This document shows positions 282 through 32,025 of a DNA stretch of 33,111 nucleotides, piece after piece (within the stretch, counting starts at the first letter, position 1; each line of letters opens with the position of its first letter). The stretch comes from Thermoanaerobaculia bacterium (GTDB lineage Bacteria > Acidobacteriota > Thermoanaerobaculia > Multivoradales > JAIOJS01): assembly GCA_019911795.1 (NCBI GenBank), contig JAIOJS010000056.1:1-33111 (forward strand), written 5' to 3'. Below the pieces are notes generated by a model. That model did not search any database and was not told the DNA's origin. It worked only from the letters and a program-made list of their open reading frames with translations. The position numbers were made by a program, and so were the translations under genes.

Positions 282-988
282 CGCGACTCTTTTCCGCCGA
301 GGCACAGCGTTGGGCGGTTCGAACTGTCTGTCTTGGATTGCTGCTCCTTCTTGGCGGTTGCCGCGGCTGTCCGAAGTCTCAACCGCCCATCCATCTCAAC
401 CCCAACATGGACAGTCAGCCCAAGTATCGAGCCCAGGCGGAGAGCGCCTTCTTCGCCGATGGGGCGACGATGAGGACTCCGGTGGAGGGAACGGTGGCCC
501 GCGGAGCGATGCCGATGGCTGATCCCTTGCACACCGGACGTCAGGGCGACGGATTCGTGGTTGGGATCCCTCTGCCCGTCGACGCGGCCGTGCTGACGCG
601 GGGACAGCAGCGCTACGGAATCTACTGCTTACCCTGCCATGGCGATCAGGCCAATGGTCGCGGCATGCTCTATCAACGGTCGCAGATCCAGTCGGCAGAT
701 CTTCACGATCCTCGGATCGTCGCCATGCCTTCCGGTGAGATCTTCGATACGATGACCAACGGCCTCGGCCTGATGCCGGCCTACGACTACTCCATCCCAG
801 TGGCGGATCGCTGGGCGATCATCGCGTACATCCGCACTCTGCAAGGCGCGGATGGGGAGAGTCTCAGTGTTCCGAACGTCGTTCCGAACGACGGGAGTCC
901 CACCGGACCCGACGGAGGCGAGTTGACGACCGATGGGGAGGTCGCAGCCCCCGGAAGCGACGGCGGCAACGAAGGAGTTTCCGGTTGA
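278..988 (+). CDS. actE: ACIII monohaem cytochrome c lipoprotein ActE
   Basis: The 236-residue product begins with a lipoprotein signal (hydrophobic stretch 17-25, then LLGGC with the acylated Cys at 28). It carries one haem c site, CLPCH at 117-121. The segment YRAQAESAFFADG...PVEGTVARG before the haem and GLGLMPAYDYSIPVADRWAIIAYIR after it are typical of ActE of alternative complex III, so it is probably the periplasmic, membrane-tethered haem subunit that delivers electrons to the acceptor. The C-terminal 35 residues are a Gly/Asp/Pro-rich tail. The ATG at 278 is chosen because it overlaps the actB stop as ATGA; an upstream in-frame ATG at 266 would lie inside actB. The gene is followed by a TTGA overlap with the CydA-like gene. 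Finding ActE directly behind ActB, without ActC and ActD between, is unusual. Confidence 0.88.
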   Translation: MTRLFSAEAQRWAVRTVCLGLLLLLGGCRGCPKSQPPIHLNPNMDSQPKYRAQAESAFFADGATMRTPVEGTVARGAMPMADPLHTGRQGDGFVVGIPLPVDAAVLTRGQQRYGIYCLPCHGDQANGRGMLYQRSQIQSADLHDPRIVAMPSGEIFDTMTNGLGLMPAYDYSIPVADRWAIIAYIRTLQGADGESLSVPNVVPNDGSPTGPDGGELTTDGEVAAPGSDGGNEGVSG

Positions 989-2832
989 AGAAGAGCTACA
1001 TCCTCATCGCTCTGGTCGTCCTGCTCGCGGGGGCCGGAGTGGTCAGCGAACTCGCCACCTTCATGGACGGGCGCCTCGCCTACGAGTCTCCCCAGGCGAT
1101 CGACCACGAAGCGCCGACGCCGCGTGAACTCGCCCTGCAAGAGCAGGCGGCCGAGGCGACCAAGGAGGCTCAGGAGCAGCCCTACGTCGAAGAGAAGTAT
1201 CGTGAGTTTCCGGTCATCGGAAGTCGTGTCGCGGTGTGGATGGCCGCACAACTGCACTTGCTTTTCGCTGCTTTCGTGCTCGCGGTCCCGATCTTCGCTC
1301 TGATCATCGAGTTGATCGGCTACAAGACCGGCGACAAGCGCTACGACGATCTGGCCTACGAGTTCACCAAGCTCCTCTCGACCGCCTTCTCCTTCACCGC
1401 GACGCTGGGTGCGCTCCTGACTTTTCTCTTGATCGCGCTTTATCCGCACTTCATGAACTACTTGATGCACGTCTTTTCGCCGACGTTCTTGCCGTACGTG
1501 CTCCTGTTCTTTCTCGAGGCGGTCTTCCTCTACTCGTACTACTACGGATGGCACGCCTTCTCGAAGCGCGTTCATCTCTGCCTCGGCCTGGGTCTCAACC
1601 TGGTCGGTACCGCCATCATGTTCATCGCCAATGCCTGGCTGACCTTCATGATGACTCCCGCCGGTGTGGCCGCGTCAGGCGCTCGCATCAGTACCTGGGA
1701 GGCGGTCACCAACTACACCTGGATGCCGATCAACATTCATCGGATGATCGCCAACGTCGCCTTCGGCGGTTCGGTCGCAGCCGCCTACGCGGCTTTCCAG
1801 TTCCTCAAGGCGAAGACCCCAGAGGAGCGGGCTCACTACGACTGGATGGGCTATATCGGCAACTTCGTAGCCATCGCGGCCCTGCTACCCCTTCCCTTTG
1901 CTGGGTACTGGCTCGCATCCGAGATCTACGCCTTTTCCCAGACGATGGGATTGACCATGATGGGCGGAGCCTTTTCCTGGCTGTTCATCATCCAGGCGAT
2001 TCTCATCGGCAATCTATTCTTGGCTGCCAACTACTACCTGTGGTTGGGCATGGGGCGCATCGAGGGAGCGGAGCGCTTCCGGTCCTACATCAAGTACCTG
2101 TTGATCGTCATCACGGGGTGCTTCCTAGTGTGGGCGACGCCGCGTTCGATCCTTGCTACGGTCGACGAAGTGCAGGCGATGGGCGGATCGTCCCATCCCG
2201 CACTCGGCTTTCTCGGCGTGATGTCGGCCAAGAACACCGCGGTGAATATCCTCATCCTAACGACCTACATCAGCTTCCTGCTCTACCGGAGGAGTGGACG
2301 GATTCCGACCGTCAAGTGGGCTAAAGCAGGCAATGCGGTGCAGTTCGCGATCTTTGCCCTGGCGGCCACGACCGTCCTCTTCTTTGGCATCTACGGCTAC
2401 TTTGTCGAAGCGGCAGTGCGTATCAAGTTCTCAGTGCCACAGGTGGGGTCGGTCCTGGCCGCGATGATCCTGGTGACGGTGATCGATATCTTCCTGTTGC
2501 GAGGCGCCAAGGAGACCGAGACGCGGTGGGGCCAGATTTCGAACACATCGCAGTACGTCCTCATCTTCCTGGCGGTGACCTTCACCTGGCTCATGGGGTT
2601 GATGGGCTACGTTCGCTCGGGCCTCCGCCAGCATTGGCACGTCTACGGCGTGATTCGCGATACGTCACCCGACGCATTCACTCCAACTCTTGGATTTGCC
2701 ACCAAGGTGGTGTCGGTGACCGTCCTTATCTTCTTTGCCTTCCTCGGAGTGGTCTTCTGGTTGGCTAGCCTAGGAGGCAAGCACGGCAAGCCCGAAGTTG
2801 CGGTCGAGGCACTGGACGGGGGCGACGTCTGA
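985..2832 (+). CDS. CydA-like (cytochrome bd-like) membrane subunit
   Basis: A 615-residue polytopic membrane protein resembling cytochrome bd oxidase subunit I (CydA) but diverged. The N terminus has one hydrophobic segment (about 4-20) and a charged periplasmic-looking stretch before the CydA-like core starts near residue 80. Candidate haem ligands are His in AAQLHLLFAAF (equivalent to the helix-1 His of CydA) and His in INIHRMIANVAFGG (equivalent to the helix-5 His). A Glu in FFLEAVFLYSYYYGW matches the conserved Glu near the high-spin haems. I do not see the GRQPW quinol-oxidase signature; the corresponding area reads WATPRS. Similar 'bd-like oxidases' are known from Nitrospira-type genomes. 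The gene starts with TTG (985) overlapping the actE stop, with GGAG about 8 bases upstream, and ends in a TGATG overlap with a cytochrome c gene. No CydB is seen, so the partners are probably the cytochromes c. Substrate and oxygen reactivity are unknown. Confidence 0.75.
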   Translation: MKKSYILIALVVLLAGAGVVSELATFMDGRLAYESPQAIDHEAPTPRELALQEQAAEATKEAQEQPYVEEKYREFPVIGSRVAVWMAAQLHLLFAAFVLAVPIFALIIELIGYKTGDKRYDDLAYEFTKLLSTAFSFTATLGALLTFLLIALYPHFMNYLMHVFSPTFLPYVLLFFLEAVFLYSYYYGWHAFSKRVHLCLGLGLNLVGTAIMFIANAWLTFMMTPAGVAASGARISTWEAVTNYTWMPINIHRMIANVAFGGSVAAAYAAFQFLKAKTPEERAHYDWMGYIGNFVAIAALLPLPFAGYWLASEIYAFSQTMGLTMMGGAFSWLFIIQAILIGNLFLAANYYLWLGMGRIEGAERFRSYIKYLLIVITGCFLVWATPRSILATVDEVQAMGGSSHPALGFLGVMSAKNTAVNILILTTYISFLLYRRSGRIPTVKWAKAGNAVQFAIFALAATTVLFFGIYGYFVEAAVRIKFSVPQVGSVLAAMILVTVIDIFLLRGAKETETRWGQISNTSQYVLIFLAVTFTWLMGLMGYVRSGLRQHWHVYGVIRDTSPDAFTPTLGFATKVVSVTVLIFFAFLGVVFWLASLGGKHGKPEVAVEALDGGDV

Positions 2833-3407
2833 TGCAGATTCCAGTTCCCCTGAAGGTGGCTATCCTCACCATCGCTGCTACGGGTTTTTACACCTACGTT
2901 GGTCAGTTGGTGCCTCAGAAGGAGGTCCATCCGCCCGAGGTCGTAGAGATGAGCTCGGATCTGTCGACGGCGGACCTCGTCGAAATCGGCGAGGGGATCA
3001 TGAGCGGCAAGGGTCTTTGCTTCACCTGCCATACAGTCGGCAAGTCCGGAGCCCTGCGCTTCCCGGATCTCGATGGCGTCGCAATACGGGCCGGATCTCG
3101 ACGCCCCGGCTACGACGAACTCACCTATCTGGCGGAATCGCTCTATCACCCGGACGTTTTTATCGTCGAGGGCTTCTCTGCCGGTATGCCGCAGATCTCG
3201 AAGCCCCCCATCGGCTTGACCGACGACGAGATTCGCGCGGTCATTGCCTACCTACAGACGCTGGGAGGTCAGGCCACCATGACCATGGATACGGTTGTCC
3301 CGTTCTCGGCCGCTGCGCCCGACGGACCCTTGAGCGCGGCGTCGGAGGCGGTCGACGATGGTACAGCGACTGGTAGCGACGAAGCGGAAGTGGAGGGAGC
3401 GGCATGA
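2832..3407 (+). CDS. Membrane-anchored monohaem cytochrome c
   Basis: The 191-residue protein has an uncleaved-looking N-terminal anchor (about 7-28) and one haem c site, CFTCH at 63-67, followed by a class I cytochrome c fold (LPxxG-like FPDLDGVA, and GMPQISKPPIGLTDDEIRAVIAYLQTLGG, where the Met of GMPQ is a likely sixth ligand). The last ~45 residues are an Ala/Asp/Ser-rich linker. Its ATG overlaps the stop of the CydA-like gene, and its stop overlaps the next ATG (ATGA), so it is part of one translationally coupled operon. It is probably the periplasmic electron donor or partner of the CydA-like subunit; this role is inferred from position only. Confidence 0.82.
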   Translation: MQIPVPLKVAILTIAATGFYTYVGQLVPQKEVHPPEVVEMSSDLSTADLVEIGEGIMSGKGLCFTCHTVGKSGALRFPDLDGVAIRAGSRRPGYDELTYLAESLYHPDVFIVEGFSAGMPQISKPPIGLTDDEIRAVIAYLQTLGGQATMTMDTVVPFSAAAPDGPLSAASEAVDDGTATGSDEAEVEGAA

Positions 3408-4234
3408 TGAACCTCGCCGTAGTCCTGCCGGTTCTCGCCGTTCTCATCGGTATCCGCTTCGCCAAACCCAGCATGTTGGGATGGGTCACGGCTTGGTGGT
3501 TGGCGGCGTGGGTCGTCCTCGACTTCGGGTTCGCAGTGCCCGTTCCCAAGACAGTGGTCAAGGAGTTCATGGGCATCATCAGCCTCGCACTGGCCGCCTA
3601 TGTCACCTCGGACCCGCAGCGCTGGCGGGAGGTTCGCGAGCCGACCACGGCCTTCCTCACGGAGCGCAAGTTCCTGCCACTCCTGGTCTTGGTGACGTTG
3701 GCCATTCCGGCCGCGGTCGCCGCGAGCATCTACTTTGACATGACGGCGCCGGCCCAGGCTCCAATCTTCGGGCGCACCGTCCATCCGGCGCCCCCGGCGA
3801 CGCTGACTGTCCACGAGGTGACGCACGACATGCAGACCCTCGACAATCCGTATCGCAAGCTCGAGGCTTCGGACCCTGCGGCCTTCGCAGTGCACGTCGA
3901 AGCGGGGCGCAAGATCTACTACGAAAACTGTTTCTACTGTCATGGTGACCTGATGCAGGGTGGCGGGATGTTCGCCCACGCCCTCAACCCGATTCCCACC
4001 AACTTCCAGGACTCGGGAACCATCGCCATGTTGCAGGAGTCCTTTCTCTTTTGGCGCGTTTCCAAGGGCGGCCCCGGGCTCCCGGAGGAAGGTGGACCGT
4101 GGATGTCGGCGATGCCGGCGTGGGAGAATTTCCTGACGGAGGAGGAGATCTGGGAGGTCATCCTCTTTCTCTATGACTTTACGGAGCAGCGCCCACGGGC
4201 CCTGCATGTCGCCTCGGGAGGGGAGGGACATTGA
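3404..4234 (+). CDS. Multi-helix membrane protein with C-terminal cytochrome c domain
   Basis: A 276-residue protein. The N-terminal half has about four hydrophobic segments (roughly residues 3-17, 24-45, 48-66 and 88-110). The C-terminal half is a monohaem cytochrome c domain with CFYCH at 176-180 and a late PWMSAMPAWENFLTEEEIWEVILFLYDF segment, whose Met is a likely haem ligand. The layout is reminiscent of CcoP-like or ActE-like anchored cytochromes, but I do not recognise the membrane half. It overlaps both neighbours by four bases, and lies between two other cytochrome genes in the actB-actE-cydA-like operon. A role in periplasmic electron transfer to or from the bd-like module is an inference from context. 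Confidence 0.78.
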   Translation: MMNLAVVLPVLAVLIGIRFAKPSMLGWVTAWWLAAWVVLDFGFAVPVPKTVVKEFMGIISLALAAYVTSDPQRWREVREPTTAFLTERKFLPLLVLVTLAIPAAVAASIYFDMTAPAQAPIFGRTVHPAPPATLTVHEVTHDMQTLDNPYRKLEASDPAAFAVHVEAGRKIYYENCFYCHGDLMQGGGMFAHALNPIPTNFQDSGTIAMLQESFLFWRVSKGGPGLPEEGGPWMSAMPAWENFLTEEEIWEVILFLYDFTEQRPRALHVASGGEGH

Positions 4235-5976
4235 GCGGGCGAAGGAACTGGATAAGCGGTGGCCGGTGGGCACTCGGACTCAGTGCACTGCTGCTCGTCG
4301 GGAGCGTTCCCGTTGGCGCACAAGTTGACCTCGGAACCGATGCCCAGCGCGAAACCGGGAAGCGGGTCTACGACAAGTACTGCTCCCAGTGCCACGGAGA
4401 CACCGGCGCCGGGGACGGCTATGCCGCCCCCTTCCTGAGGCCCAAGCCGAGGGACTTTACGTCGGGTAAGTACAAGATCCGTTCGACGCCCAACGGCTTC
4501 TTACCGACCGACGATGACATTCGCCGAGTGATTCAAGCTGGGATTCCTTACACCGCAATGCCGGCCTTCCCTGAGTTCTCCGCGGTGGAGGTGACCGGGC
4601 TCATCCAGTACCTCAAGACCTTCTCGAGCGACTTCGAGGATCCCGAAGCTTATGCCCCGCCCTTGGCGCAACCCGCCGCGCCTCCCTACTCGGCCGACAA
4701 CGTGGCCTCCGCTGTCGAGGTCTACGAGCAGATCGGCTGTGCGCGTTGCCATGGCGTCGAGGGGCGAGGTGATGGTGCCTCGGCTCCCACCCTGGTCGAT
4801 GACTGGGGGGATCCAATCCGCGCCGCGGACCTCTCCGAGCCTTGGACCTTCCGCGGCGGAGCGACCCGCGAGGACATCTACCGTTCGATCAGTACCGGCC
4901 TCAACGGAACTCCGATGGCGGGTTTCGAATCCGGTTTGACACCGGAAGAGCGCTGGAAGATCGTCGACTTCATCTACTCCCTGGCCGACGGCCAGACGGA
5001 GCCGGGCTACGCTAGCCTGGTCACGGCCACCTCGATCGAGGGCGGCCTCGAACTCGAGCGCGGCGAGGAGATGTTCGCATCTGCCAAGCCGGCCCTGCTA
5101 CCGGTGATGGGCCAGATCGTGCAGTTGGGTCGGGCCTTTCATCCCGGTGTGAGAGCGGTGGAGGTTCGCGCGGTCTACGATGAAAGCGACATCGCCTTTA
5201 TGGTGTCCTGGAGCGATATCCAGGCCAATCGCAACGGTGAGAACTCACCCCACCTGCAGGTCGAGGAGCTGGTTTCTACCGCATCGGGTAGTGAGTCCGA
5301 CGAAGGCGGTTTCTGGGGCGAGGAAGAGGCGACTGAGGATGGCGGCGACTTCTGGGGCGAAGAGGAGAGCGGTGACGCCTCCGAAGGGGGCGGCGACGAC
5401 TTCTGGGGAGACGATACTGGCGATGCGGTCGCGACTCTGGACGCCGACACCGCCGAGTTCTCCGATGCGATCGCCTTGCAGTTTCCACGCACCCTGCCCA
5501 CCGGCATTCGCCAGCCCTACTTCATCAACGGCGATAGCCAGCATCCGGTCGAGTTGTGGTACGTCGACCTCGGCTATCCCGATGCTCCCGAGCTCTGGGA
5601 GGGCCGCGGAAGCGCTGCTCTGACCGTTACCGACGAAGCTCCTCCTTACGTTACTGCGACCTACAAAGATGGACAGTGGACCGTGATCTTCAAGCGGTCT
5701 CGGACTCCCGCTCAGGGAATTGGTTTCGCCGAAGATACGTTTGTGCCACTCGCGCTCTCGGTTTGGGACGGCTTCAACGAGGAGCGCGGGAGTCGTCGCG
5801 GATTGACCGCCTGGTATCCTGTCTATGTGCCGCCCTTGGAGACGGTGTCCCCCGTCGGACCGATGGTCAAAACCGCCGGGGGCGTACTTCTCGCAGAGCT
5901 GCTCCTCATCCTCTGGGTGCGTCGCCGAGTGGCGAAGGGCACCGATTCCGGCGACCTCGCGGGAAGCGCTACATGA
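4231..5976 (+). CDS. Dihaem cytochrome c fused to EB_dh-like haem b domain
   Basis: A 581-residue exported protein: signal sequence (about 12-30), two cytochrome c domains (CSQCH at 51-55 and CARCH at 170-174), then from about 265 a domain resembling the ethylbenzene-dehydrogenase gamma subunit family (haem b binding, also found in NXR, perchlorate and DMSO-reductase type II complexes). A C-terminal membrane helix (about 553-570) is followed by RRR. Within the EB_dh-like part, residues ~345-405 form an acidic insertion in which FWG followed by Glu/Asp occurs three times (FWGEE, FWGEE, FWGDD). Start is TTG at 4231, overlapping the previous stop as TTGA, with a GGGAGG run just upstream. It is the last gene of the operon. 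It probably collects or passes electrons in the periplasm; whether it serves an unseen molybdoenzyme or the bd-like module cannot be told from here. Confidence 0.78.
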   Translation: MSGRRNWISGGRWALGLSALLLVGSVPVGAQVDLGTDAQRETGKRVYDKYCSQCHGDTGAGDGYAAPFLRPKPRDFTSGKYKIRSTPNGFLPTDDDIRRVIQAGIPYTAMPAFPEFSAVEVTGLIQYLKTFSSDFEDPEAYAPPLAQPAAPPYSADNVASAVEVYEQIGCARCHGVEGRGDGASAPTLVDDWGDPIRAADLSEPWTFRGGATREDIYRSISTGLNGTPMAGFESGLTPEERWKIVDFIYSLADGQTEPGYASLVTATSIEGGLELERGEEMFASAKPALLPVMGQIVQLGRAFHPGVRAVEVRAVYDESDIAFMVSWSDIQANRNGENSPHLQVEELVSTASGSESDEGGFWGEEEATEDGGDFWGEEESGDASEGGGDDFWGDDTGDAVATLDADTAEFSDAIALQFPRTLPTGIRQPYFINGDSQHPVELWYVDLGYPDAPELWEGRGSAALTVTDEAPPYVTATYKDGQWTVIFKRSRTPAQGIGFAEDTFVPLALSVWDGFNEERGSRRGLTAWYPVYVPPLETVSPVGPMVKTAGGVLLAELLLILWVRRRVAKGTDSGDLAGSAT

Positions 5977-6042
5977 TTTCGAACTGTCCGGAAGGCGTTG
6001 TGGCGCGTCCGGTAACCCCAGCATAGCCAAGGAGATTCCTCC

Positions 6043-8325
6043 ATGTACGAGAGCATTTACGTCCCCGTCGACAACTCAGGGCATTCCAACCGAGCGATCG
6101 ACACCGCCATGACGCTGGGGAAGGGCTTCGGATCGAAGATGATCGGCTCACATGTCTACGCGGCCAAGATGCACGACTACCGTTTCAAGCAGATGGAGTT
6201 CACCCTCCCAGAGGAGTATCTGGTCGAGCAGGAACTCCATCGCCAGCGCAAGATCCACGACAGTCTGATCACGATGGGGCTGCAACTGATCTCAGACTGC
6301 TACCTGGAACCGATGGGCGCTCTCTGCGAAGCCGCGGGACTCGAATTCGAACCCAAGATGATGGACGGGAAGCACTCGACTGAACTTATCAAGGACATCC
6401 GTGAGAATGATTACGACCTCGTGGTCCTCGGTGTTCTCGGAGTGGGCCGTACCCGGGACAGCCAGATCGGAGCCGTCTGCTCACGACTGACCCAGGAGTG
6501 CGCCAAGGACACCTGGGTGGTCAAGCACGTTCCGAAGAAGGATGAACCTGAACGGGACACGATTCTCGTGGGGGTCGACGGCAGCCCTCGATCGTTCGGC
6601 GCTTTGACGACTGCCCTCGAGTTGGCCAAGAAGTTTGACAAGAAGGTCGAGGTGATCGGAGTCTACGATCCCTATTTGCACTACGCCGTGTTCAAGGGGA
6701 TCGTCGATGTCCTCACCGAGCGAGCCGCCAAGGTGTTTCGCTTCGAGGAGCAGAACCAACTGCACGAGGAGATCATCGACACCGGTTTGGCCCAGATCTA
6801 TCAATCGCACTTGAACGTGGCCGAGAGCATGGCTCGGGAAGCCGGAGTCGAGGTCAACAAGACGCTGCTCGACGGCAAAGCCTTCCAGAAGGTCCTCGAT
6901 CACGCGCGCAAGATTGAGCCCTGGGTGTTGGTGGTCGGACGGGATGGGGTCCATGCCGGCGAGGACGAGACCAGTCTGGGAAGCAACACCGAGAACCTTC
7001 TGCGTCTCTGTCCTTGCGATGTGTTGCTGACCAACTCCGAGGTGATCCCCGAACTCGACCTCAAGGCTGAAGAATCGATCCACTGGACTCCCGAGGCCTT
7101 GGAGCGGATGGACCGGGTTCCTCCTCAGGTACTCGGTATCGCTCGAACTGCCATCCTTCGTCTCGCCCTCGAGCAGGGACACAGCGTGGTGTCATCGGAC
7201 CTGGTCACCGATGCCATGGAGCGTTTCATGCCGAAGAAGGCGGCCGAGGCCAACGTGCGACTAGCCGAGGCGCTGATGGTGCACAAGGCGGAACAGCAGC
7301 CGGTCGCGGTGTGCGCCCAATGTGGAGTGGCGGCCCGGACCCAGGATCCGGTGACTTGCACGGTCTGTGGCTCGGCGGAGTTCGAGCGGATCTCGGCCGA
7401 GACCATCGCTCGCATCATCGCGGAGGAAGGTGGTGTCGAGGAGGAGATGACCTACGACGGTCGCAAGGTGCGGTGGACGCAGGAGTCCAAGGCCGCCCTC
7501 AAGTTCCTCGAGGACCGCTACCAGCGGCGCCGGGCCAAGGCTCGAATCGAGAAGGCAGCTCGCATTCAGAAAATGGACCCGATCAGTCTGGAGTTCGCGC
7601 AACGCTTTATCGAGGAGGAGGCGGGAGTCTTGTACCAGCCCTCGGCGGAGTACGAGGCCCGCAAGGCTGAGGTCGCTGCCAACGGAGTCGGGCAGGTGAC
7701 GACGCCCGCTGCCACCGTAGCCGACGACGACGAGGAGCCGGAAGGCAAGATCTGGGGACGGGACGCCAAGAACGTTCCCCTGGTGTCGAGTTTCGATTGG
7801 CAGGCCGATGCCGTCGAACGAGTTCTGCGAGTTCCGGCCGGCTTCATGCGTGACAACACCCAGGGGCGGATCGAGGGGTTGGCAGGGGATCGTCAGGTCG
7901 CGAAGATCGACCTCGGTTTGGTCGAAGAGGGCCTCGAACTCGGGCGGCAACTCATGGAGGAGATGTTGGGTCAGTACAGCGCCCCGGCGGTCGCAACCCA
8001 GGAGACTCAGATAGCGGCCAGCAATGGGGCAGCGGCGGCGGTGACGGCAGCGGTGGTGACTCGGTCGACACCTGAGGCTGTGGTCCCGGACGCGACCCCA
8101 GGTCCGGCCTCAGCCCCGGTTTCAGCTTCGGTTTCAGCAACCAGTCTTTCTTCCACCGTCTCCCCCGAGGAGAGCCCCAAGGCCTCTGGATGCCCGTTCC
8201 ACGTAGCATTGGAGAGCGGCGCTGCCGATCAGGTTCGGGACGTCATGAAGAGCTATCCCCTCAACGAGGTTAGTGTGATGTCCGAGATGGAGCGCAAGAA
8301 GCGAGAGTTGCCGCAAGAGAACTGA
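6043..8325 (+). CDS. Tandem universal stress protein fused to zinc ribbon and PCP_red domains
   Basis: A 760-residue soluble protein without signal peptide. Residues ~1-160 and ~168-330 are two UspA-like domains; the second has an ATP-binding type pattern (GRDGVHAGEDETSLGSNTENLL). Next come a PCP_red-like segment (about 346-396, IHWTPEALERMDRVP), a four-Cys zinc ribbon (C424, C427, C439, C442), and two further PCP_red-like segments (about 472-525 starting VRWTQESKAAL, and about 585-640 starting FDWQADAVERVLRVP). A low-complexity Ala/Ser/Val/Pro linker leads to a C-terminal GCPFH stretch. PCP_red is the small domain named from the light-independent protochlorophyllide reductase B subunit. It is widespread in non-phototrophs, where its job is unclear. 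A good ribosome site (AAGGAG at 6029-6034) precedes the ATG. It lies 66 bases after the cytochrome operon and may be cotranscribed. A stress or redox sensor for the respiratory chain is possible but unproven. Confidence 0.8.
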   Translation: MYESIYVPVDNSGHSNRAIDTAMTLGKGFGSKMIGSHVYAAKMHDYRFKQMEFTLPEEYLVEQELHRQRKIHDSLITMGLQLISDCYLEPMGALCEAAGLEFEPKMMDGKHSTELIKDIRENDYDLVVLGVLGVGRTRDSQIGAVCSRLTQECAKDTWVVKHVPKKDEPERDTILVGVDGSPRSFGALTTALELAKKFDKKVEVIGVYDPYLHYAVFKGIVDVLTERAAKVFRFEEQNQLHEEIIDTGLAQIYQSHLNVAESMAREAGVEVNKTLLDGKAFQKVLDHARKIEPWVLVVGRDGVHAGEDETSLGSNTENLLRLCPCDVLLTNSEVIPELDLKAEESIHWTPEALERMDRVPPQVLGIARTAILRLALEQGHSVVSSDLVTDAMERFMPKKAAEANVRLAEALMVHKAEQQPVAVCAQCGVAARTQDPVTCTVCGSAEFERISAETIARIIAEEGGVEEEMTYDGRKVRWTQESKAALKFLEDRYQRRRAKARIEKAARIQKMDPISLEFAQRFIEEEAGVLYQPSAEYEARKAEVAANGVGQVTTPAATVADDDEEPEGKIWGRDAKNVPLVSSFDWQADAVERVLRVPAGFMRDNTQGRIEGLAGDRQVAKIDLGLVEEGLELGRQLMEEMLGQYSAPAVATQETQIAASNGAAAAVTAAVVTRSTPEAVVPDATPGPASAPVSASVSATSLSSTVSPEESPKASGCPFHVALESGAADQVRDVMKSYPLNEVSVMSEMERKKRELPQEN

Positions 8326-17850: not shown

Positions 17851-17907
17851 GGAGCCTCCTAGTGAGTAGGGTAGCGTCCGGCGAGGTTGCTACCGGGAGA
17901 GCCTAGC

Positions 17908-18717
17908 TCAGTCCCAGAAGTCGTCGCCTCCCTCGTCTTCGGCGAGCAGAGCTTGTTCACTCGCCATCCAGGCATCGAAACCACTTTGATCGTGGATGGT
18001 CACGAATCCGCGCATGCGGTAGTGACCGATGCCACAGAGCTGAGCGCAGGCGATCTCGTAGTTGGCATCCTCCTGGCCACGGTTGGCACGCATCTCGGCC
18101 GTGGTCACGGTGGGTATGAACCAGAGGGGGATGGTCATGCCGGGCATGGCGTCCTGCTTCACCCGAAACTCGTTGAGCATGAAAGAGTGGATGACGTCCT
18201 TCGAACTGATGTGGATAATGGCCGGCTTGTCGACGGGGAGGTGCAGCTGGTTGATGGTGGTCACGTCGTCAGCGGCGCTGGGGTCTTTGCGGTCGAGACC
18301 GAGCGGGTTGGAGATGGCATCGACCATTCCGATATCGGTGCGACCGAAGATTCCGTCGGGGCCTGGGTAGTGAACGTTCCAGGCGAACTGCTCGCCGACA
18401 ACTCGAACCTCAGTGGACTCGCTCGGAGCGGGGAAGTCGTCGACACGTTGCGACCAGAGCGGGATCGAGAAGCCGACCAAGAGGATCGCCTCGGAGGCGA
18501 TGACCGCCCACTCTGCGTAGGTCGATGACTTGCTCTTCAGCCCTTCGTACACGGCGGTGGGATGTCGGCTGGCTCGAAACTTCCACAGCATGTAGAGGAA
18601 TAGCAGTCCCCACCCCACGAACATCACGAACATCAAGCCGTGCACGAGAAGCGTGGCATGGTCGAGTTCCGCGCCGTGGGCGGAGGCGATTTCTGGGAGT
18701 CCGAGCGGTCTATCCAT
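17908..18717 (-). CDS. coxB: Cytochrome c oxidase subunit II (CuA)
   Basis: The 269-residue subunit has two membrane helices (about 24-46 and 68-88) and a periplasmic cupredoxin domain that accepts electrons from cytochrome c. The CuA ligands are H177 (VIHSF), C224, C228, H232 and M235 (CAQLCGIGHYRM). Position 226 is Gln rather than the usual Glu; since only the backbone carbonyl there binds copper, the site should still form. A GPDGIFGRTD insertion (119-128) matches CoxB of Acidobacteriota/Planctomycetota-type oxidases. There is no fused haem c domain. The tail ends in an acidic GGDDFWD (263-269), which also occurs in the dihaem cytochrome at 4231-5976. The ATG overlaps the stop of the preceding small gene (TAATG). 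coxB is last among the oxidase genes here rather than first. Confidence 0.95.
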   Translation of the reverse strand: MDRPLGLPEIASAHGAELDHATLLVHGLMFVMFVGWGLLFLYMLWKFRASRHPTAVYEGLKSKSSTYAEWAVIASEAILLVGFSIPLWSQRVDDFPAPSESTEVRVVGEQFAWNVHYPGPDGIFGRTDIGMVDAISNPLGLDRKDPSAADDVTTINQLHLPVDKPAIIHISSKDVIHSFMLNEFRVKQDAMPGMTIPLWFIPTVTTAEMRANRGQEDANYEIACAQLCGIGHYRMRGFVTIHDQSGFDAWMASEQALLAEDEGGDDFWD

Positions 18718-18947
18718 TACTTCCCTCGCGTCGAGAGTGCGGTACGGCGACGCACCACGACCATCATGAAGGCTCCCCCTCCGAGGAGGAGGTAGGTCAA
18801 TAGGAGCATGAAGAGGATGGCGTTCTGGCCGCCGTCGATCATCGCATTCTTGGCCGCGCCGTAGCAGACAGTGCAGGCCGACGCCGGGGCCGTCAAGAGA
18901 CCTGCGAGGAGCAGGACGAACAGAGTCGAGAGTAGTCGCCGAGTCAT
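18717..18947 (-). CDS. Small exported membrane protein with CTVC motif
   Basis: A 76-residue protein with an N-terminal signal-like helix (about 5-22, ending PASA), directly followed by CTVC, then a second helix (about 42-64) and a basic RRR end. It lies between a 65-residue membrane protein and coxB with overlaps on both sides (ATGA and TAATG). The start at 18945-18947 is fixed by this overlap. The CxxC would face the periplasm. Small oxidase accessory subunit or copper/thiol helper are both possible; I know of no defined family. Confidence 0.65.
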   Translation of the reverse strand: MTRRLLSTLFVLLLAGLLTAPASACTVCYGAAKNAMIDGGQNAILFMLLLTYLLLGGGAFMMVVVRRRTALSTRGK

Positions 18948-19141
18948 AGGAAGCTCACCTCGCGGGTTTTGCGCAGGAACCAGACACCATAGACCGGAAG
19001 TGCGATCGCGGCGCCGACAGAACCAAAACCGAGCCAACCCATTCCCTCGCCAGGCGCCTGTTGAAACGCCCAGAACGCCACCCCAGCGGCGAGCAGGGTG
19101 GAGGCGGTGACAAAGAGGACGTGGAAAGCCTTGAGGGACAT
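18944..19141 (-). CDS. Small two-helix membrane protein in the cox operon
   Basis: A 65-residue protein with two hydrophobic helices (about 5-26 and 35-56) and a charged C terminus (RKTREVSF). It follows subunit IV by 40 bases and overlaps the next small gene by four bases (ATGA). Small membrane proteins of this type are common in bacterial oxidase operons as accessory subunits. No specific family is recognised. Confidence 0.65.
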   Translation of the reverse strand: MSLKAFHVLFVTASTLLAAGVAFWAFQQAPGEGMGWLGFGSVGAAIALPVYGVWFLRKTREVSFL

Positions 19142-19181
19142 ACGGGGCGCCTGGTTCGGAGTGATGAAGTCTGGAGTGGTC

Positions 19182-19478
19182 TTAGAGAGTAATCGGGTTG
19201 CCGGCCGTCATAGTGGGGATGACGAGGACGAAGAAGAAGAACACTGCCGAGAGGAGGAGGGTCCAGAGGATCAACTTGCGCTCGGTCATCAGGTGCATGA
19301 AGTAGCACGCGACCAGACTTGCCTTGACGGTAGCGATGAGCAGAGCCAGGGCAATGGCCTCCATGGTCGGTAGGTGAAGGTACGACACCGCGACCGTGAT
19401 CAAGGTCAGCGTCATCAAGGCCACGAAGACCATGATGTAGGGTCGAATGTTGGGCTTCTCTCCCAGGGTATGTGCCAT
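19182..19478 (-). CDS. Cytochrome c oxidase subunit IV (prokaryotic type)
   Basis: A 98-residue protein with three membrane helices and the usual pattern of bacterial subunit IV: LPTMEAIALALLIATVKASLVACYFMHL in the second helix, ending with a hydrophobic third helix. The start at 19476-19478 (MAHTLGEKP) is chosen over an in-frame ATG at 19634 that would overlap coxC. It stabilises the oxidase and has no cofactor. It lies 52 bases behind coxC. Confidence 0.88.
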   Translation of the reverse strand: MAHTLGEKPNIRPYIMVFVALMTLTLITVAVSYLHLPTMEAIALALLIATVKASLVACYFMHLMTERKLILWTLLLSAVFFFFVLVIPTMTAGNPITL

Positions 19479-19530
19479 AAAGTGAACTCCGGTGGTAGTC
19501 GTCGTGTCGTGAATCGCTACAGTAGACGCG

Positions 19531-20145
19531 CTAGGAGGCGGCGTCCGGGAGCAGATAGAGGATCGGAAAGAGGAAGATCCACACCAGGTCGACGAAGTGC
19601 CAGAACAGGCCGGAGGCCTCGACTCGATTGGCAAACTGCTGGGGGTTGGAGTGGAACATCTTCGATCCTGGAATCCACAGGTAAGCGTTGTAGCCCATGC
19701 CCACGATCACGTGGAGGGCGTGAAGACCGGTGAAGGTGAAGTAGATCGCCATGAAGGTACTGTGGCTGGGATACAGATGGTGCTCAAACTTGGCCGAGTA
19801 CTCGAACCCCTTGACCACGAGGAACACCGCACCGGCCATCACGGTACATCCCATGTAGAGCCGGAACTTGGCGAAGTTTTGTTCCATCGCGGCGGCCCAG
19901 GCGAGGACCATGGTCACACTGGAGGTGATCAAGACCACAGTGTTGAGGGTCGCCATGGGAACCGAGAGCGCGCCTGATCCCGCTCCGAACTCCGGATTGC
20001 CGGTCCGCAGCAAAATGTAGCCGGCAAAGAGAGATCCGAAGAGCATGATCTCAGAGGCGAGGAAGAGCCAGATGCCCAGTTTAACGTTGTTGACCCCGGT
20101 GTCGGGGCGAATCTCCGTGGTGTAGGGAATGACGGTCGTCGACAT
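19531..20145 (-). CDS. coxC: Cytochrome c oxidase subunit III
   Basis: The 204-residue length and five predicted helices fit the short bacterial subunit III. Family marks are KLGIWLFLASEIMLFGSLFAGYILLR, the conserved Glu in VKGFEYSAKF, and TGLHALHVIVGMGY followed by ASGLFWHFVDLVWIFLFPILYL at the end. Subunit III carries no metal but supports proton uptake into the D pathway. It follows coxA by nine bases. Confidence 0.93.
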   Translation of the reverse strand: MSTTVIPYTTEIRPDTGVNNVKLGIWLFLASEIMLFGSLFAGYILLRTGNPEFGAGSGALSVPMATLNTVVLITSSVTMVLAWAAAMEQNFAKFRLYMGCTVMAGAVFLVVKGFEYSAKFEHHLYPSHSTFMAIYFTFTGLHALHVIVGMGYNAYLWIPGSKMFHSNPQQFANRVEASGLFWHFVDLVWIFLFPILYLLPDAAS

Positions 20146-20154
20146 GGGGATTCC

Positions 20155-21897
20155 TCAGGCTTCGGAAGATACGTTGCCAGCGACGTACTGGGGGAGGAAG
20201 TCCTCCTCCATGCCCGGAACGCTGTACTCGTAGGGGCCGTGGTAGACGGTCGGAACGGTGGCGAAGTTTCCGTGTGGCGGGGGCGAAGGCGCCAGCCACT
20301 CGAGGGTGGTCGCCTGCCAGGCGTTGTCCGGCGCCTTGGCGCCGCCCTTGAGGCTCATGAAGAAGTTGATGATAAAGGGAATCTGGGCGATCGCCAGACC
20401 CCAGGCCGAGAAGGACATCACCTTGTTGAGGTGGAGGACTTCCTGAGCGTGAGCGTAGATCTGGCCGCCATCGAAGAGCCGCCGCTGCACACCGTGCAGC
20501 CCCTGGATCAGCATCGGGAAGAAGATCCCGTTGATGAAGATCAAACTGGGCCAGAAGTGAATTCGCCCGAGCTTCTCGCTGAGGTACCGACCGGTGGCTT
20601 TCGGATACCAGTAGTAGACCCCGGCAAAGAGGGCGAAGATGGTCCCGGGAGCGACCACATAGTGGAAGTGCCCGATGACGTAGTAGGTGTCATGCAGATG
20701 GATGTCAGAACTCGCCAGACCGAGGGGGAGGCCGGTGAGGCCGCCGATGCCGAACATGGGGATGAAAGCAAGGGCGAACATCATGGCGGTATTGAAGCGG
20801 ATCGAGGCGCCCCACAGCGAGAGTAGGAGGCAGGTCAGGATCACCACGGACGGGATCGAGATGATCATCGTCGTCGTCTGGAAGAAAGCCGACATCATCG
20901 TTCCCATACCGGTGATAAACATGTGGTGGGCCCACACGATGAACGACATGAAGCCGACGAAGAGCACCGAGTAGACCAGTGCCTTGTAGCCGTACAGCGG
21001 CTTGCGGGTGTTGTTGGCCACCACCTCGCCGACGATACCGAGCGCCGGAAGGATGAGGACGTAGACCTCGGGGTGAGCGAGAAACCAGAAGAGGTGCTGC
21101 CACAGGATCGGACTACCACCACCGGTGTTGGCTATCGCCTGGCCGCTGACGATCAACCCCTCCGGCATGAAGAAGCTGGTACCGGCCAATCGGTCCATGA
21201 GCTGCATGACACCGGCTGCTTGCATGGCTGGAAAGGCGAGAAGCAGCAAGAAGGAGGTGACGAACTGAGCCCAGACGAAGAAGGGAAGCCGCCAGAAGGT
21301 CATTCCAGGCGCTCGAAGCTGCACGATGGTGACGATGAAGTTAATCGCACCGAGGAGCGACGACATGATCAGGAAGAGCATGCCGAAGACCCACCAGGTC
21401 TGTCCGGAGCCGGCGATGTTCGACAGCGGCGGATAGGAAGTCCAGCCCGACTGAGCGGAGCCACCGGGTACGAAGAAGCTGGAAAGCATCACCACGCCAC
21501 CCCAGAAGTAGAGGTGGTAACTCATCATGTTGAGGCGGGGGAACGCCATGTCGGGAGCGCCGATCTGGAGGGGCACCACGAAGTTGCCGAAGCCGCCGAC
21601 GGCCAGAGGTACCACGCCTAGGAACACCATGATGGTTCCGTGCATTGCCCCGAGCTGGTTGTAGAACTCGGGCAGCATGATCCCCCCCGGCATGCGGCTG
21701 TCCCCGAGGAGTCCTCCGAACGGCAGCGCTTCACCTGGGAAGGCGAGCTGCCACCGCATCAGCATCATGAGGGTGAAGCCGAAGAAGAGGAAGAGCAGGG
21801 CGGTGACGGCGTACTGAATCCCGATCACCTTGTGATCTACTGAAAACCAGCTCGCTAGGAGTCCTGGTTTCTCGTGATGTGCGTGCGACTCTCCCAT
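20155..21897 (-). CDS. coxA: Cytochrome c oxidase subunit I, K-channel lysine absent
   Basis: The 580-residue catalytic subunit reduces oxygen to water and pumps protons. Haem a ligands are H86 and H412, haem a3 ligand H410, CuB ligands H275, H324 and H325, and the cross-linked Tyr is Y279 (HPEVY). The D-pathway residues are present: N105, D116, N123 and E277, so it is an A-type enzyme. However, the helix that normally carries the K-pathway motif (IPTGVKxF) reads IPSVVILT at 348-355, placing Ile353 where the lysine should be. Translation was checked on the bases at 20836-20880. The first gene upstream encodes a cupredoxin-like protein; gaps to coxC are nine bases. The N terminus (GESHAHHEKPG) is His-rich and lies before the first helix. 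Confidence 0.96.
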   Translation of the reverse strand: MGESHAHHEKPGLLASWFSVDHKVIGIQYAVTALLFLFFGFTLMMLMRWQLAFPGEALPFGGLLGDSRMPGGIMLPEFYNQLGAMHGTIMVFLGVVPLAVGGFGNFVVPLQIGAPDMAFPRLNMMSYHLYFWGGVVMLSSFFVPGGSAQSGWTSYPPLSNIAGSGQTWWVFGMLFLIMSSLLGAINFIVTIVQLRAPGMTFWRLPFFVWAQFVTSFLLLLAFPAMQAAGVMQLMDRLAGTSFFMPEGLIVSGQAIANTGGGSPILWQHLFWFLAHPEVYVLILPALGIVGEVVANNTRKPLYGYKALVYSVLFVGFMSFIVWAHHMFITGMGTMMSAFFQTTTMIISIPSVVILTCLLLSLWGASIRFNTAMMFALAFIPMFGIGGLTGLPLGLASSDIHLHDTYYVIGHFHYVVAPGTIFALFAGVYYWYPKATGRYLSEKLGRIHFWPSLIFINGIFFPMLIQGLHGVQRRLFDGGQIYAHAQEVLHLNKVMSFSAWGLAIAQIPFIINFFMSLKGGAKAPDNAWQATTLEWLAPSPPPHGNFATVPTVYHGPYEYSVPGMEEDFLPQYVAGNVSSEA

Positions 21898-21939
21898 CGG
21901 GGACCTCTCAGGTATAGGGCTCTACTGTGCGGTGCAGCA

Positions 21940-21999
21940 AGTGCTCCGGATCCAGCTCAAGTGTTCCGGATCCGGCTCAAGTGCTCCGTGTCAGACTCA
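21940..21999. repeat. Three imperfect 20-bp tandem repeats upstream of coxA
   Basis: Three consecutive 20-base units, each beginning AGTG(C/T)TCCG and ending CTCA: 21940-21959, 21960-21979 and 21980-21999. Units 1 and 2 differ at two bases; unit 3 differs mainly in its middle. They fill about half of the 121-base gap between the cupredoxin-like gene and coxA. Twenty bases is close to two helical turns, so all copies would face the same side of the DNA. They may be binding sites, an mRNA element, or just slipped replication. Confidence 0.8.
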
Positions 22000-22018
22000 A
22001 CTGCGTTTCTAGGGTGTC

Positions 22019-26507: not shown

Positions 26508-27722
26508 CTACGCGTTTTCGAAGAGCAGACTTTCAGCCAGACGTGGATCCTTGACGGGAACCAGTGGTCGGCGCCTCATGATGGTGGCGAGCACGGCGAC
26601 AAAAACACCGCCGACGCCGATCACAGCGGTGAGGTCGAGAGGATTCAGGTTGGGTGCCTCGTGATGGAAGTTCGGCATCACCAGCCAGTACAGGTCGACA
26701 TAGTGCATGACGAGCAGCCAGCAGGAGACCGCTACTAGGGTGATCCGTCGCCGCTTGACGTCCCTGATGAGGAGAAAGAAGAAGGGAAGGACGAAGTGCC
26801 CAACGGCGAGGAAGATGGAGAAGCTCTTCCAATCGGTATTCCAGCGTGCGGCGAAGAACTCGGTCTCCTCTGGAATGTTGGCGTACCAGATCAGCATGAA
26901 CTGAGAGAAGGCGATGTAGGCCCAGAAGACGACGAAACCCAGGAGCAGCTTTCCGAGGTCGTGGTAGTGCTCCCAGGTGACCAGGTCGTGGAGGGCGCCC
27001 GCCCGCTGCAGCGCCATCGCCAGGAGAATGATGACGGCGAGGATGGCGACCACCGAGCCGGCGAAGAAGTAGACCCCGAAGATGGTCGAGAACCAGTGGG
27101 GATCTAGGGACATCAACCAGTCGAAGGAGGCAAAGGTCTGGGTCAGGGCATAGCCGATCAGGGCGAGCGGCGAGAGCGTTTGAAGTCGCCGCGTGATCGA
27201 GACGGCCCCCATCTGATCCTGTCGCTGCGACTGTCTCCAGTAGTAGACCGCAATGACGGACCACACGATGAAGTAGAGGATCGCTCGGAGATGAAAGGCT
27301 GAGATATCGAGGTACGCACTCTTGTGTTGCAGGATGGGATCGTGGGCAACCGCATCGGCGTGGCTCCAGTGGTAGAGCTCGTGAACCCCGAGTGCGATGG
27401 GGATGAAGAGCACCGCGAAGACCGGAAGCGTTGCCATGACGTGTTCGGCGAGCCGACGGACGGTGACGCTCCAGCCCGCCCGGACCAGGAACTGAATCAC
27501 CACGAAGAACAGCCCTCCCAGGGCCAGGCTGAGGAAGAAGACGAAGGCCACCAGGTAGGAGTGAATGGCCTGGGCGGGATCGGCCTGTCCCAAGAGCCAG
27601 GTCAGGACGAGTCCGGCGATGCCGAGGCCGGCGCCTATCCGTGGCAGCTGGGTCCACAGACCACGCTCCGGGACGGCGATACTGACCGCATCGAGATTGG
27701 GGGTCGCGATCTCCATCGACAT
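26508..27722 (-). CDS. actF: ACIII membrane subunit ActF
   Basis: The 404-residue protein has about ten membrane helices and the layout of ActF, the second NrfD/PsrC-like subunit of alternative complex III. Conserved-looking parts are VRAGWSVTVRRLAEHVMATLPVFAVLFIP, LYHWSHADAVAHDPILQHKSAYLD, TFASFDWLMSLDPHWFSTIFGVYFFAGS and FWAYIAFSQFMLIWYANIPEETEFF. It lies in the membrane next to ActC and is thought to take part in energy coupling rather than quinol oxidation. Its ATG overlaps the actD stop (ATGA). actE, which normally lies between actD and actF, is absent here and is found at 278-988. Confidence 0.93.
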   Translation of the reverse strand: MSMEIATPNLDAVSIAVPERGLWTQLPRIGAGLGIAGLVLTWLLGQADPAQAIHSYLVAFVFFLSLALGGLFFVVIQFLVRAGWSVTVRRLAEHVMATLPVFAVLFIPIALGVHELYHWSHADAVAHDPILQHKSAYLDISAFHLRAILYFIVWSVIAVYYWRQSQRQDQMGAVSITRRLQTLSPLALIGYALTQTFASFDWLMSLDPHWFSTIFGVYFFAGSVVAILAVIILLAMALQRAGALHDLVTWEHYHDLGKLLLGFVVFWAYIAFSQFMLIWYANIPEETEFFAARWNTDWKSFSIFLAVGHFVLPFFFLLIRDVKRRRITLVAVSCWLLVMHYVDLYWLVMPNFHHEAPNLNPLDLTAVIGVGGVFVAVLATIMRRRPLVPVKDPRLAESLLFENA

Positions 27723-28249
27723 CAGGCCTCCACCATTTCTATGTACTGGGCGCCGGCCTGGCGGAGTAGGGACTCGGTGCCTTCGCGGTCGAAATTCGGA
27801 TCCTCTGCCTCGATCGAGATGAAGAAGCGGTCGTCGCTAAATCCCTCAAAGCGAGTCGAGTTGAAGAGCGGATGGTTGTGCTGCGGTAGTCGGGACAGGC
27901 CGAGGAACCCGAAGAAGGCACCCATCGCTCCGCCGAGGACGCCGCATTCGAACATGATCGGCACGAAGGCGGGCCAGCTGAACATCGGCTTGCCGCTGAC
28001 CACCAGTGGATAGGCTTGGGTGCTCGCCCACCATTGCAGTCCCATGCCTGCGGCGGCGCCGCCCAGTCCGAGGGTCAGGACCACCAAGGACACCCAGGAG
28101 CGCTTCAATCCCATCGCCCGCTCGAGGCCGTGGATTGGGAAAGGAGTGTGGGCGTCCCAGTGAGTGAACCCTGAGTCGCGGACGCGCTCGCAGGCCTGCC
28201 ACAGCGTGTCCGGGTTGGCGAACTCGGCGAGGATTCCGTAGGGTTTCAT
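27722..28249 (-). CDS. actD: ACIII membrane subunit ActD (DUF3341)
   Basis: A 175-residue DUF3341 protein: an N-terminal soluble part beginning KPYGILAEFANPDTLWQACERVRDSGFTHWDAHTPFPIHGLERAMGL, two membrane helices (about 53-75 and 95-118), and a C-terminal FFISIEAEDPNFD segment. ActD bridges the membrane subunits of alternative complex III. The ATG at 28247-28249, with GGAG seven bases upstream, is preferred over a TTG at 28267 that overlaps the actC stop. Confidence 0.92.
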   Translation of the reverse strand: MKPYGILAEFANPDTLWQACERVRDSGFTHWDAHTPFPIHGLERAMGLKRSWVSLVVLTLGLGGAAAGMGLQWWASTQAYPLVVSGKPMFSWPAFVPIMFECGVLGGAMGAFFGFLGLSRLPQHNHPLFNSTRFEGFSDDRFFISIEAEDPNFDREGTESLLRQAGAQYIEMVEA

Positions 28250-28263
28250 CGAGATCTCCTCGC

Positions 28264-29703
<1,440 letters not shown>

Positions 29704-29728
29704 ACTCCCTCGCAACCTCTATTGAGAG

Positions 29729-30416: not shown

Positions 30417-30423
30417 AAGGAGG
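30417..30423 (+). promoter_or_regulatory. Ribosome binding site of the selenoprotein gene
   Basis: A near-perfect AAGGAGG lies five bases before TTG at 30429 and eight bases before TTG at 30432. It fixes the start just upstream of the in-frame TGA, and would have no purpose if translation began after the TGA. Confidence 0.75.
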
Positions 30424-30428
30424 ACGAT

Positions 30429-30776
30429 TTGTTGCAGTTGATCTGTCGCAGGACCTGAGGCACCTGTCGCAAGGCGGTCGCCTTGCTGAAGGAGAATGAG
30501 ATCCCCTTCGAGTACCGTGAGTACACTGAAGATCCCCTTTCCGAGGACGAGCTAAGGGAACTCTTCTCCGCGCTTGGTCTAGAGCCGGCCGAGACTCTGA
30601 GGACTCGGGATCCTGTCTATCGCGAGCTCGGTCTGACGGGGAACGAACCTGCAGAAGCCTTGATTCGATGGATGGCCCTACATCCGACCCTGCTGCAGCG
30701 ACCGATCGGAGTCGTCGGTGAGCGGGCTGTGCTCGGGCGTCCCCCTGAACGACTCTTGGAACTGATCGAGGCTTAG
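30429..30776 (+). CDS. Selenocysteine-containing ArsC/Spx-family thioredoxin-fold protein
   Basis: Read through an in-frame TGA at 30456-30458, the frame gives a 115-residue protein, the normal length for the ArsC/YffB/Spx family. The N terminus reads LLQLICRRTUGTCRKAVALL, where U is the TGA. It occupies the first position of the family's CxxC/CGTC active site (Sec10, Cys13), at the end of the first beta strand as expected. Further family marks are FEYREYTEDPLSEDELRELF, ETLRTRDPVYRELGL and LLQRPIGVVGERAVLGRPPE, including the conserved Arg-Pro before the last strands. Start is TTG 30429 (or 30432) after AAGGAGG. A hairpin matching a bacterial SECIS element follows the TGA. A standard gene call would begin at 30483 and lose the catalytic site. 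Likely a thiol/selenol oxidoreductase; arsenate as substrate is not shown. No sel genes are in the window. Confidence 0.82.
30456..30492 (+). promoter_or_regulatory. Bacterial SECIS-like element (UGA plus hairpin)
   Basis: Directly after TGA (30456-30458) the RNA can fold GCAAGGC-GGTC-GCCTTGC (30469-30486): seven perfect pairs closing a GGUC loop. The loop begins 17 bases after the UGA. Outside an internal loop, CCU (30463-30465) can pair with AGG (30490-30492). SelB in bacteria recognises a hairpin inside the reading frame just after UGA with G residues (GGU in E. coli fdhF) in its apical loop; distance and loop fit that model. Pairing is compatible with coding for RKAVALL. Confidence 0.78.
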
Positions 30777-30789
30777 TCGGGGCTGCCGC

Positions 30790-32025
30790 TTAGGAAGGGC
30801 GGGCCCTCGATCCGAAGACGGGGCCTCGGCCCGATCCCTGCATTCCCTCTTCCATCAACTCCGCGGTGATCACATCAGCGCCTTGGCGTCGGGCAAAAGC
30901 CTCGATGCCGCTCTCCAACTTGCGACGGATGAACGCGATTGGGATCCTCTCGAGTCGAGCCCGGGCGGCGGGGCTCCAGCGCACGGCCGCGTTGGTCAGC
31001 CGTTCCCCGGTCGGCTGATGAGGGCAGGCAGGATCCTCGGCGAAGATGTTCCCGGTGTGAGCGTAGGCGCGACAGCGACAGCCGCCGCAGAGGTCGCGGT
31101 ATTCGCAGGCGCCACAGCGACCCTCGAGCCGTTCCGGGTCTCGGAGGTCCCGCAGCAGAGGGGCGCTCTCCCACACTTCGGTAAAGCTGGAGTCGAGGAC
31201 ATTGCCGGCAATCTCGACGGTGTAGGGGCACGGTGTGACATTGCCCTCCGGGGTGATTCGACAGTAGTGGGTTCCGGCCATGCAGCCGCCACTTTCAAGC
31301 CCGGCGAGGCCCTGTTCGTAGGCGATCCGTTTGAACTGGGGCGCACATTTGGAGCGCACCAGCATGGGGCGATAGCGCTCCTGCTGTTCGGTCAGCCAGG
31401 TGAGTAGGGACTCGGTGCGCTGTGACGAGAGTTCGGTCATCGTCTCACCGCGACCCGTCTGAACGAGGAGGTAGAGGTTGAAGGACCAGGCACCCTGGTC
31501 GCGGGCGAAGGCTAGGAGGTCTCCGACCTCGTCGTAGTTCTCCTCCATGACGGTGGTCTGGACCAGAACTTCGAGGCCGTGGCGGCGGCATGTTTCGAGG
31601 GCTCGCACCGAGTGGTGCCAGGCGTTCTTGCCCCCTCGAAAGGCATCGTGACGGGCAGCGTCGATCGAGTCGATACTGATCCCCACCCCCTTGACGCCAC
31701 ATTCCACCATCTTCTGCGCTACCGCATCGGTCACCAGCACGCCATTGGTTCCCATCACGACCCACAATCCGCGCCGTGAGGCGGCGCTGGCGATCTCGTA
31801 GATATCCTTGCGTAGTAGCGGCTCCCCCCCGGTGAGGATCACCATCTCGGTCCCTAGGTCGGCCATCTCGTCGACGAGGGCGAGGCACTCCGCGGTATCC
31901 AACTCTCGGGACGCTGACTTTCCGGCATCCAGATAGCAGTGCGGGCACTTCAGGTTGCACTTCTTGGTCAGGTTCCACGACACCAAGGATGGCCGGAAGT
32001 CGATGGAGGGTACTGGGTGGCTCAT
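30790..32025 (-). CDS. Radical SAM/SPASM protein with C-terminal PCP_red domain
   Basis: A 411-residue protein. The radical SAM motif is CNLKCPHC (C23, C27, C30) after SLVSWNLTKK, with VILTGGEPLLR as the SAM-binding GGE motif. A SPASM-type region follows (GGCMAGTHYCRITPEGNVTPCPY, then CGACEYRDLCGGCRCRA), which would bind one or two auxiliary clusters. Residues ~345-392 are a PCP_red-like domain (VRWSPAARARLERIP onwards). The order is like AhbD/NirJ haem-pathway enzymes, which convert porphyrin side chains, so a role in haem maturation for the oxidases is attractive but unproven; a peptide-modifying enzyme is the alternative. It converges on the selenoprotein gene, with only 13 bases between the two stops. 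Confidence 0.82.
   Translation of the reverse strand: MSHPVPSIDFRPSLVSWNLTKKCNLKCPHCYLDAGKSASRELDTAECLALVDEMADLGTEMVILTGGEPLLRKDIYEIASAASRRGLWVVMGTNGVLVTDAVAQKMVECGVKGVGISIDSIDAARHDAFRGGKNAWHHSVRALETCRRHGLEVLVQTTVMEENYDEVGDLLAFARDQGAWSFNLYLLVQTGRGETMTELSSQRTESLLTWLTEQQERYRPMLVRSKCAPQFKRIAYEQGLAGLESGGCMAGTHYCRITPEGNVTPCPYTVEIAGNVLDSSFTEVWESAPLLRDLRDPERLEGRCGACEYRDLCGGCRCRAYAHTGNIFAEDPACPHQPTGERLTNAAVRWSPAARARLERIPIAFIRRKLESGIEAFARRQGADVITAELMEEGMQGSGRGPVFGSRARPS

Follow-up and report, generated by a model that had tools for sequence, protein, structure and literature searches.

An ArsC-family gene of a Thermoanaerobaculia bacterium predicted to encode selenocysteine at the catalytic position

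The gene at positions 30429-30776 of the DNA analyzed here very probably encodes a full-length ArsC-family selenoprotein in which selenocysteine (Sec) is specified by an in-frame UGA codon, and this was the best explanation overall. That the product is a selenoprotein, as judged by comparison of sequences, we hold to be nearly certain. The window, that is, the whole stretch of DNA analyzed, consists of 33,111 nt of contig JAIOJS010000056.1 (assembly GCA_019911795.1) from a Thermoanaerobaculia bacterium of the Acidobacteriota. A selenoprotein had been proposed in a preliminary description of the window, and the proposal was strengthened by the selenium machinery of the genome, by homologues that carry only TGA or a Cys codon at this site, by a SECIS hairpin with covariation that is degraded in the Cys forms, and by conserved arginines. 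The features of the gene are as follows:

30417-30423, + strand: AAGGAGG, which resembles a Shine-Dalgarno motif, with 5 nt between it and the TTG start, read from the sequence.
30429-30776, + strand: predicted selenoprotein gene of the ArsC family (thioredoxin fold), 115 codons with the TGA read through, assigned from profiles and a structural model.
30429-30431, + strand: TTG start codon, aligned with the ATG or GTG of most homologues (alignments A1 and A2).
30444-30446, + strand: Cys6, four residues N-terminal of Sec, invariant in A1 and present in 45 of 45 Sec sequences.
30456-30458, + strand: UGA, predicted Sec10, equivalent of the catalytic Cys-12 of R773 ArsC, TGA in 21 of 21 rows of A2.
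30465-30467, + strand: Cys13, putative resolving Cys of the UxxC motif, invariant in A1 and present in 45 of 45 Sec sequences.
30469-30486, + strand: predicted bSECIS stem-loop GCAAGGC-GGUC-GCCUUGC, identified by its fold, covariation, synonymous-site freeze and published criteria.

Translation of the frame reads LLQLICRRTUGTCRKAV...LLELIEA*, with a single TGA and a TAG stop codon at 30774-30776. As had been noted in the preliminary description, AAGGAGG precedes a TTG start that is close to the TGA; the distance from TTG 30429 to the TGA is 27 nt, and a second in-frame TTG follows immediately at 30432. The read-through protein matched Pfam ArsC (PF03960; residues 9-111, E 6e-13) and NCBIfam arsC (residues 9-113, E 8e-24), and the PF03960 score of 49.3 bits against a gathering cut-off of 24 bits places it in the ArsC family. 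Because the two matches cover residues 9 to 111 and 9 to 113, homology runs across the TGA, in agreement with the original observation that the TGA falls on the first active-site Cys (TUGTCRKA) of a frame with family similarity on both sides.

To determine the conservation of the TGA codon, 197 genomes of relatives were searched, and TGA was found at the identical codon in 21 of them, the window's own included (alignment A2 has 21 rows, also counting the window). When 84,980 species genomes were scanned, 48 loci were obtained, 47 of them within the clade of the window's gene and one (L099) distant and outside it; the scan was biased against Sec because one of its two patterns matches Cys codons only. 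In the clade of 48 sequences (47 public loci and the window), the codon is TGA in 45 and TGC in three (L071, L082 and L093). No other residue and no frameshift was found at the Sec codon among the 47 public clade loci. An unrelated residue or a frameshift in homologues had been named at the outset as evidence that would speak against a selenoprotein, and Cys or Sec at position 10 as evidence in its favor; position 10 is Sec or Cys throughout the 48 sequences. The clade loci belong mainly to Acidobacteriota, Gemmatimonadota, Myxococcota/Deltaproteobacteria and Planctomycetota, with single metagenome-assembled genomes labelled Calditrichota and Actinomycetes.

In the tree, the clade forms a single branch (support 100/97), to which the other ArsC-like proteins of Acidobacteriota do not belong. 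L071, L082 and L093, the Cys members, do not group together but fall at separate places among the Sec sequences, which suggests that the change from Sec to Cys has happened repeatedly. Since the tree (112 columns, long outgroup branch) has low resolution within the clade, the order of these changes was not inferred beyond the separateness of the Cys rows. In the genome of the Cys member L082, neither tRNA-Sec nor selB was detected at the thresholds used, and the genomes of L071 and L093 contain both.

The predicted SECIS hairpin has a stem of 7 bp in which 30469-30475 pairs with 30480-30486 around a GGUC loop at 30476-30479. The hairpin begins 10 nt past the UGA and its loop lies 17 nt past it; with its GGUC loop, 7 bp and 17-nt distance it falls within the constraints for bacterial SECIS elements quoted in PMC13188914. 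The folding energy was about -16 kcal/mol for a 45-47 nt stretch. Taken singly, the sequence in the window gave a modest folding z-score (-0.7 to -1.65), and the case for the hairpin was thus built on comparison between sequences and not on stability alone. When 41 distinct Sec sequences were compared, 97.9% of the cells were paired, with both-sided changes at three pairs (A-U to G-C, G-C to A-U and C-G to G-U); none of 500 shuffles reached this paired percentage or the covariation score, and slid-control positions paired at 58% or less. In the 21 sequences of A2, pairing was found in 147 of 147 cells. Codons 14-18 were each represented by a single codon in 93-98% of sequences compared to a background of 39-72%, codon 19 was TTG in 84% compared to 13%, and this synonymous freezing dropped back past the stem. 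In the Cys homologues L071, L082 and L093, 5-6 of the 7 pairs are kept and the GGUC loop is lost. One Sec homologue, L096, keeps the TGA and has a much weaker hairpin, in which 4 of the 7 pairs form around a CGTG loop; another hairpin may be in use there, or Sec may be in the process of being lost. An Rfam search of the window gave no match.

The window lies on contig C465 of a 5.4-Mb assembly that is 94% complete. One tRNA-Sec with a UCA anticodon was found above the Rfam cut-off (75.4 bits), and a second match above the cut-off is a tRNA-Ser. The selB, selA and selD genes were detected with 360, 458 and 325 bits, respectively. The preliminary description had held that a genome without selA, selB, selC and selD would contradict a selenoprotein; all four are present, above the family cut-offs. 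Among the 21 TGA-carrying genomes (the window's own included), tRNA-Sec was found in 20. Since tRNA-Sec is common in the phylum (160 of 197 genomes), its co-occurrence alone discriminates weakly. The selD gene of the window's genome (L018, G000:C194:530-1456, - strand) has an in-frame TGA of its own and reads ASTGGUAAKV, with the TGA at what we take to be the SelD active-site position.

The TGA differs by one base from TGC and TGT, and a Cys codon that had been mutated in a pseudogene or misread in sequencing would leave the situation in which annotators would call a shortened 97-residue ORF from TTG 30483. However, the same codon is TGA in 20 other relatives' genomes and at 44 public loci (overlapping sets) from several phyla, at protein identities that are mostly about 55-66%, and it is thus neither chance nor an assembly error. 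The residues flanking the TGA on either side are also invariant in A1. Pseudogene formation, sequencing or assembly error and chance were refuted by this conservation across genomes, and we consider a lost or misread Cys codon to be vanishingly improbable. The in-frame TTG 30483 does open a 97-codon ORF, which raises the question of whether the real product starts there, with the upstream codons serving as a leader. In this shortened ORF the first strand is missing, and so is the catalytic motif, whereas L4, I5, C6, T9 and an ATG/GTG start are conserved upstream of it and the Cys homologues are uninterrupted. A downstream start was rejected on these grounds and is very improbable.

A less clear-cut alternative accepts the Sec residue and holds that the protein is a thiol-disulfide oxidoreductase or an Spx-like regulator instead of an arsenate reductase. 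The UxxC motif occupies the position of the CxxC of B. subtilis Spx, which it resembles, and the protein matched an Spx profile with 66 bits. No conserved partner gene was found over the 47 public loci and the window, so the gene stands alone; the clusters that do recur at the locus represent the gene or ORFs that overlap it out of frame or on the opposite strand. Acr3 was found in 12 of the 25 Sec-ArsC genomes tested, leaving about half without it, and neither Acr3 nor ArsB was detected in the window's genome (94% complete assembly). On the other hand, the AlphaFold2 model (pLDDT 93.2) had arsenate reductases as its best Foldseek matches (3rdw and 3f0i, TMq 0.88-0.90) and matched R773 ArsC (TIGR00014; 1i9d and 1jzw) with TMq 0.89-0.91; overall, TMq was 0.88-0.91 to ArsC compared to a weaker 0.72-0.81 to Spx. 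The features that define ArsC, the catalytic Cys-12 position (Sec10 here) together with Arg-60, Arg-94 and Arg-107, are all represented, the arginines by R58, R91 and R104, which are invariant in A1. The Arg triad residues are required for arsenate resistance, as reported in PMC5155266. The Arg of Spx at the R107-equivalent position is not conserved, and in the Spx profile comparison GRP stands opposite GYN at this position. The top family was arsC for every member listed. The cut-offs of the Spx models were not reached (NF002459, 47.7 against 123 bits; TIGR01617, 52.8 against 75 bits), and neither was the TIGR00014 equivalog cut-off of 106.05 bits, with 84.4 bits for the window's protein and 71-96 bits for five other members listed. 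In summary, the fold and the Arg triad match arsenate reductase and not Spx. A role as oxidoreductase or Spx-like regulator is still a serious contender, to which we give somewhat less than an even chance.

If the gene is read as an ArsC-family selenoprotein, the UGA at 30456-30458 would be decoded as Sec by SelB and tRNA-Sec, with insertion directed by the hairpin at 30469-30486 within the coding sequence. Sec10, which aligns with the catalytic Cys-12 of R773 ArsC, would be the nucleophile that attacks arsenate, another oxyanion or a disulfide held by the Arg triad. Cys13, perhaps with Cys6, may resolve the intermediate as a selenenylsulfide, and thioredoxin or glutaredoxin would then reduce it. 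In comparison to R773 ArsC, the protein has Sec for Cys-12, Cys for Ser-15 (UxxC) and Cys6 for His-8, the R773 sequence having been confirmed against 1i9d. Selenols are acidic already, so that the loss of His-8 is plausible, and by its position Cys6 could join the redox relay. For the predicted enzymatic activity, the Arg triad favors arsenate or another oxyanion. Whether arsenate is the physiological substrate is evenly balanced because Acr3 and ArsB are missing from the protein's own genome, Acr3 is patchy in the others and conserved neighbors are lacking.

Selenoproteins of the ArsC kind have been predicted before. UxxS Sec-ArsC proteins were predicted in 2005 (PMC1088965), ArsC-like Sec proteins in 2006 (PMC1794560), and both UxxS and UxxC forms in 2008 from marine/GOS data (PMC2398784); Sec-ArsC is also listed in reviews of 2022 (PMC9312934) and 2026 (PMC13188914). 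The statement in the preliminary description that ArsC-like selenoproteins had been reported from marine metagenomes was correct (PMC1088965, PMC2398784). No report that joins selenoproteins with Thermoanaerobaculia was found in the literature searched. The Sec arsenate reductase of the Sargasso Sea (PMC1088965) is similar in belonging to the ArsC family with Sec at the catalytic position, but its motif is UxxS (TIGR00014 in PMC13188914) and not UxxC. The GOS "arsenate reductase 2" (cd03032, PMC2398784) has the ArsC fold and UxxC, a likeness drawn from its description only. In the 2026 review (PMC13188914), the UxxC form is placed under NF041106 (ArsC_rel_Se_1), a model that no other paper in the literature searched mentions. 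In contrast to this assignment, the window's protein scored 13.9 bits and the listed relatives at most 22.1 bits against an NF041106 cut-off of 85.

Since the members tested fall below the cut-offs of NF041106 and TIGR00014, the clade lies outside these two models. The sequence evidence gives good support to a subfamily within a known kind of selenoprotein, which may overlap with the GOS UxxC set, compared here by description. We lean slightly toward a fuller account in which this is a distinct multi-phylum Sec-ArsC subfamily (CxxTUxxC and Arg triad), outside the tested NCBIfam models, in which Sec is the usual state and Cys arose secondarily, by reversion, in a few members, and which may couple the reduction of arsenate or another oxyanion directly to thioredoxin via a Sec-Cys pair. 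Because no tested NCBIfam model reaches its cut-off, automated annotation is likely to truncate the clade proteins and strip them of the active site. The preliminary description had stated that the gene would normally be mis-annotated as a 97-residue protein; the corresponding 97-codon ORF is there, and the loss in annotation is judged likely. The branch consists mostly of Sec proteins with a few Cys members, and its conserved, minimal SECIS has decayed in all three of the Cys forms found. This makes the clade well suited, as a clean series provided by nature, to studying the benefit of Sec in an enzyme with the ArsC fold. It is also suited to asking if soil and marine bacteria use selenium against arsenic.

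A second Acidobacteriota Sec-ArsC group with the motif KPTU[TK][TK]CR (L117, L119, L122, L123 and L125) is similar to the clade in being an ArsC homologue with UxxC from the same phylum. It differs in forming a separate tree branch, in its mixture of Sec and Cys, and in having another, more distal hairpin, an example of which is GTTGTTT-CGTGA-AAACAAC. Sec and Cys are intermixed on the tree in this group, suggesting repeated Sec/Cys exchange.

In terms of the surroundings of the gene in the window, alternative complex III-like (ActD, NrfD-like) and haem-copper oxidase subunit-like genes were found upstream of it and around it, at 1-6000, 17900-22000 and 26508-29715, and no linkage of such genes to the selenoprotein gene is conserved over the 47 public loci and the window. 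The adjoining gene (30790-32025, - strand) encodes a radical SAM/SPASM protein whose C-terminal domain is PCP_red; the protein is closest to the NirJ2 and AhbD heme-pathway models, below their cut-offs. A PCP_red domain is also found at 6043-8325 (+ strand), where it is fused to universal stress protein domains.
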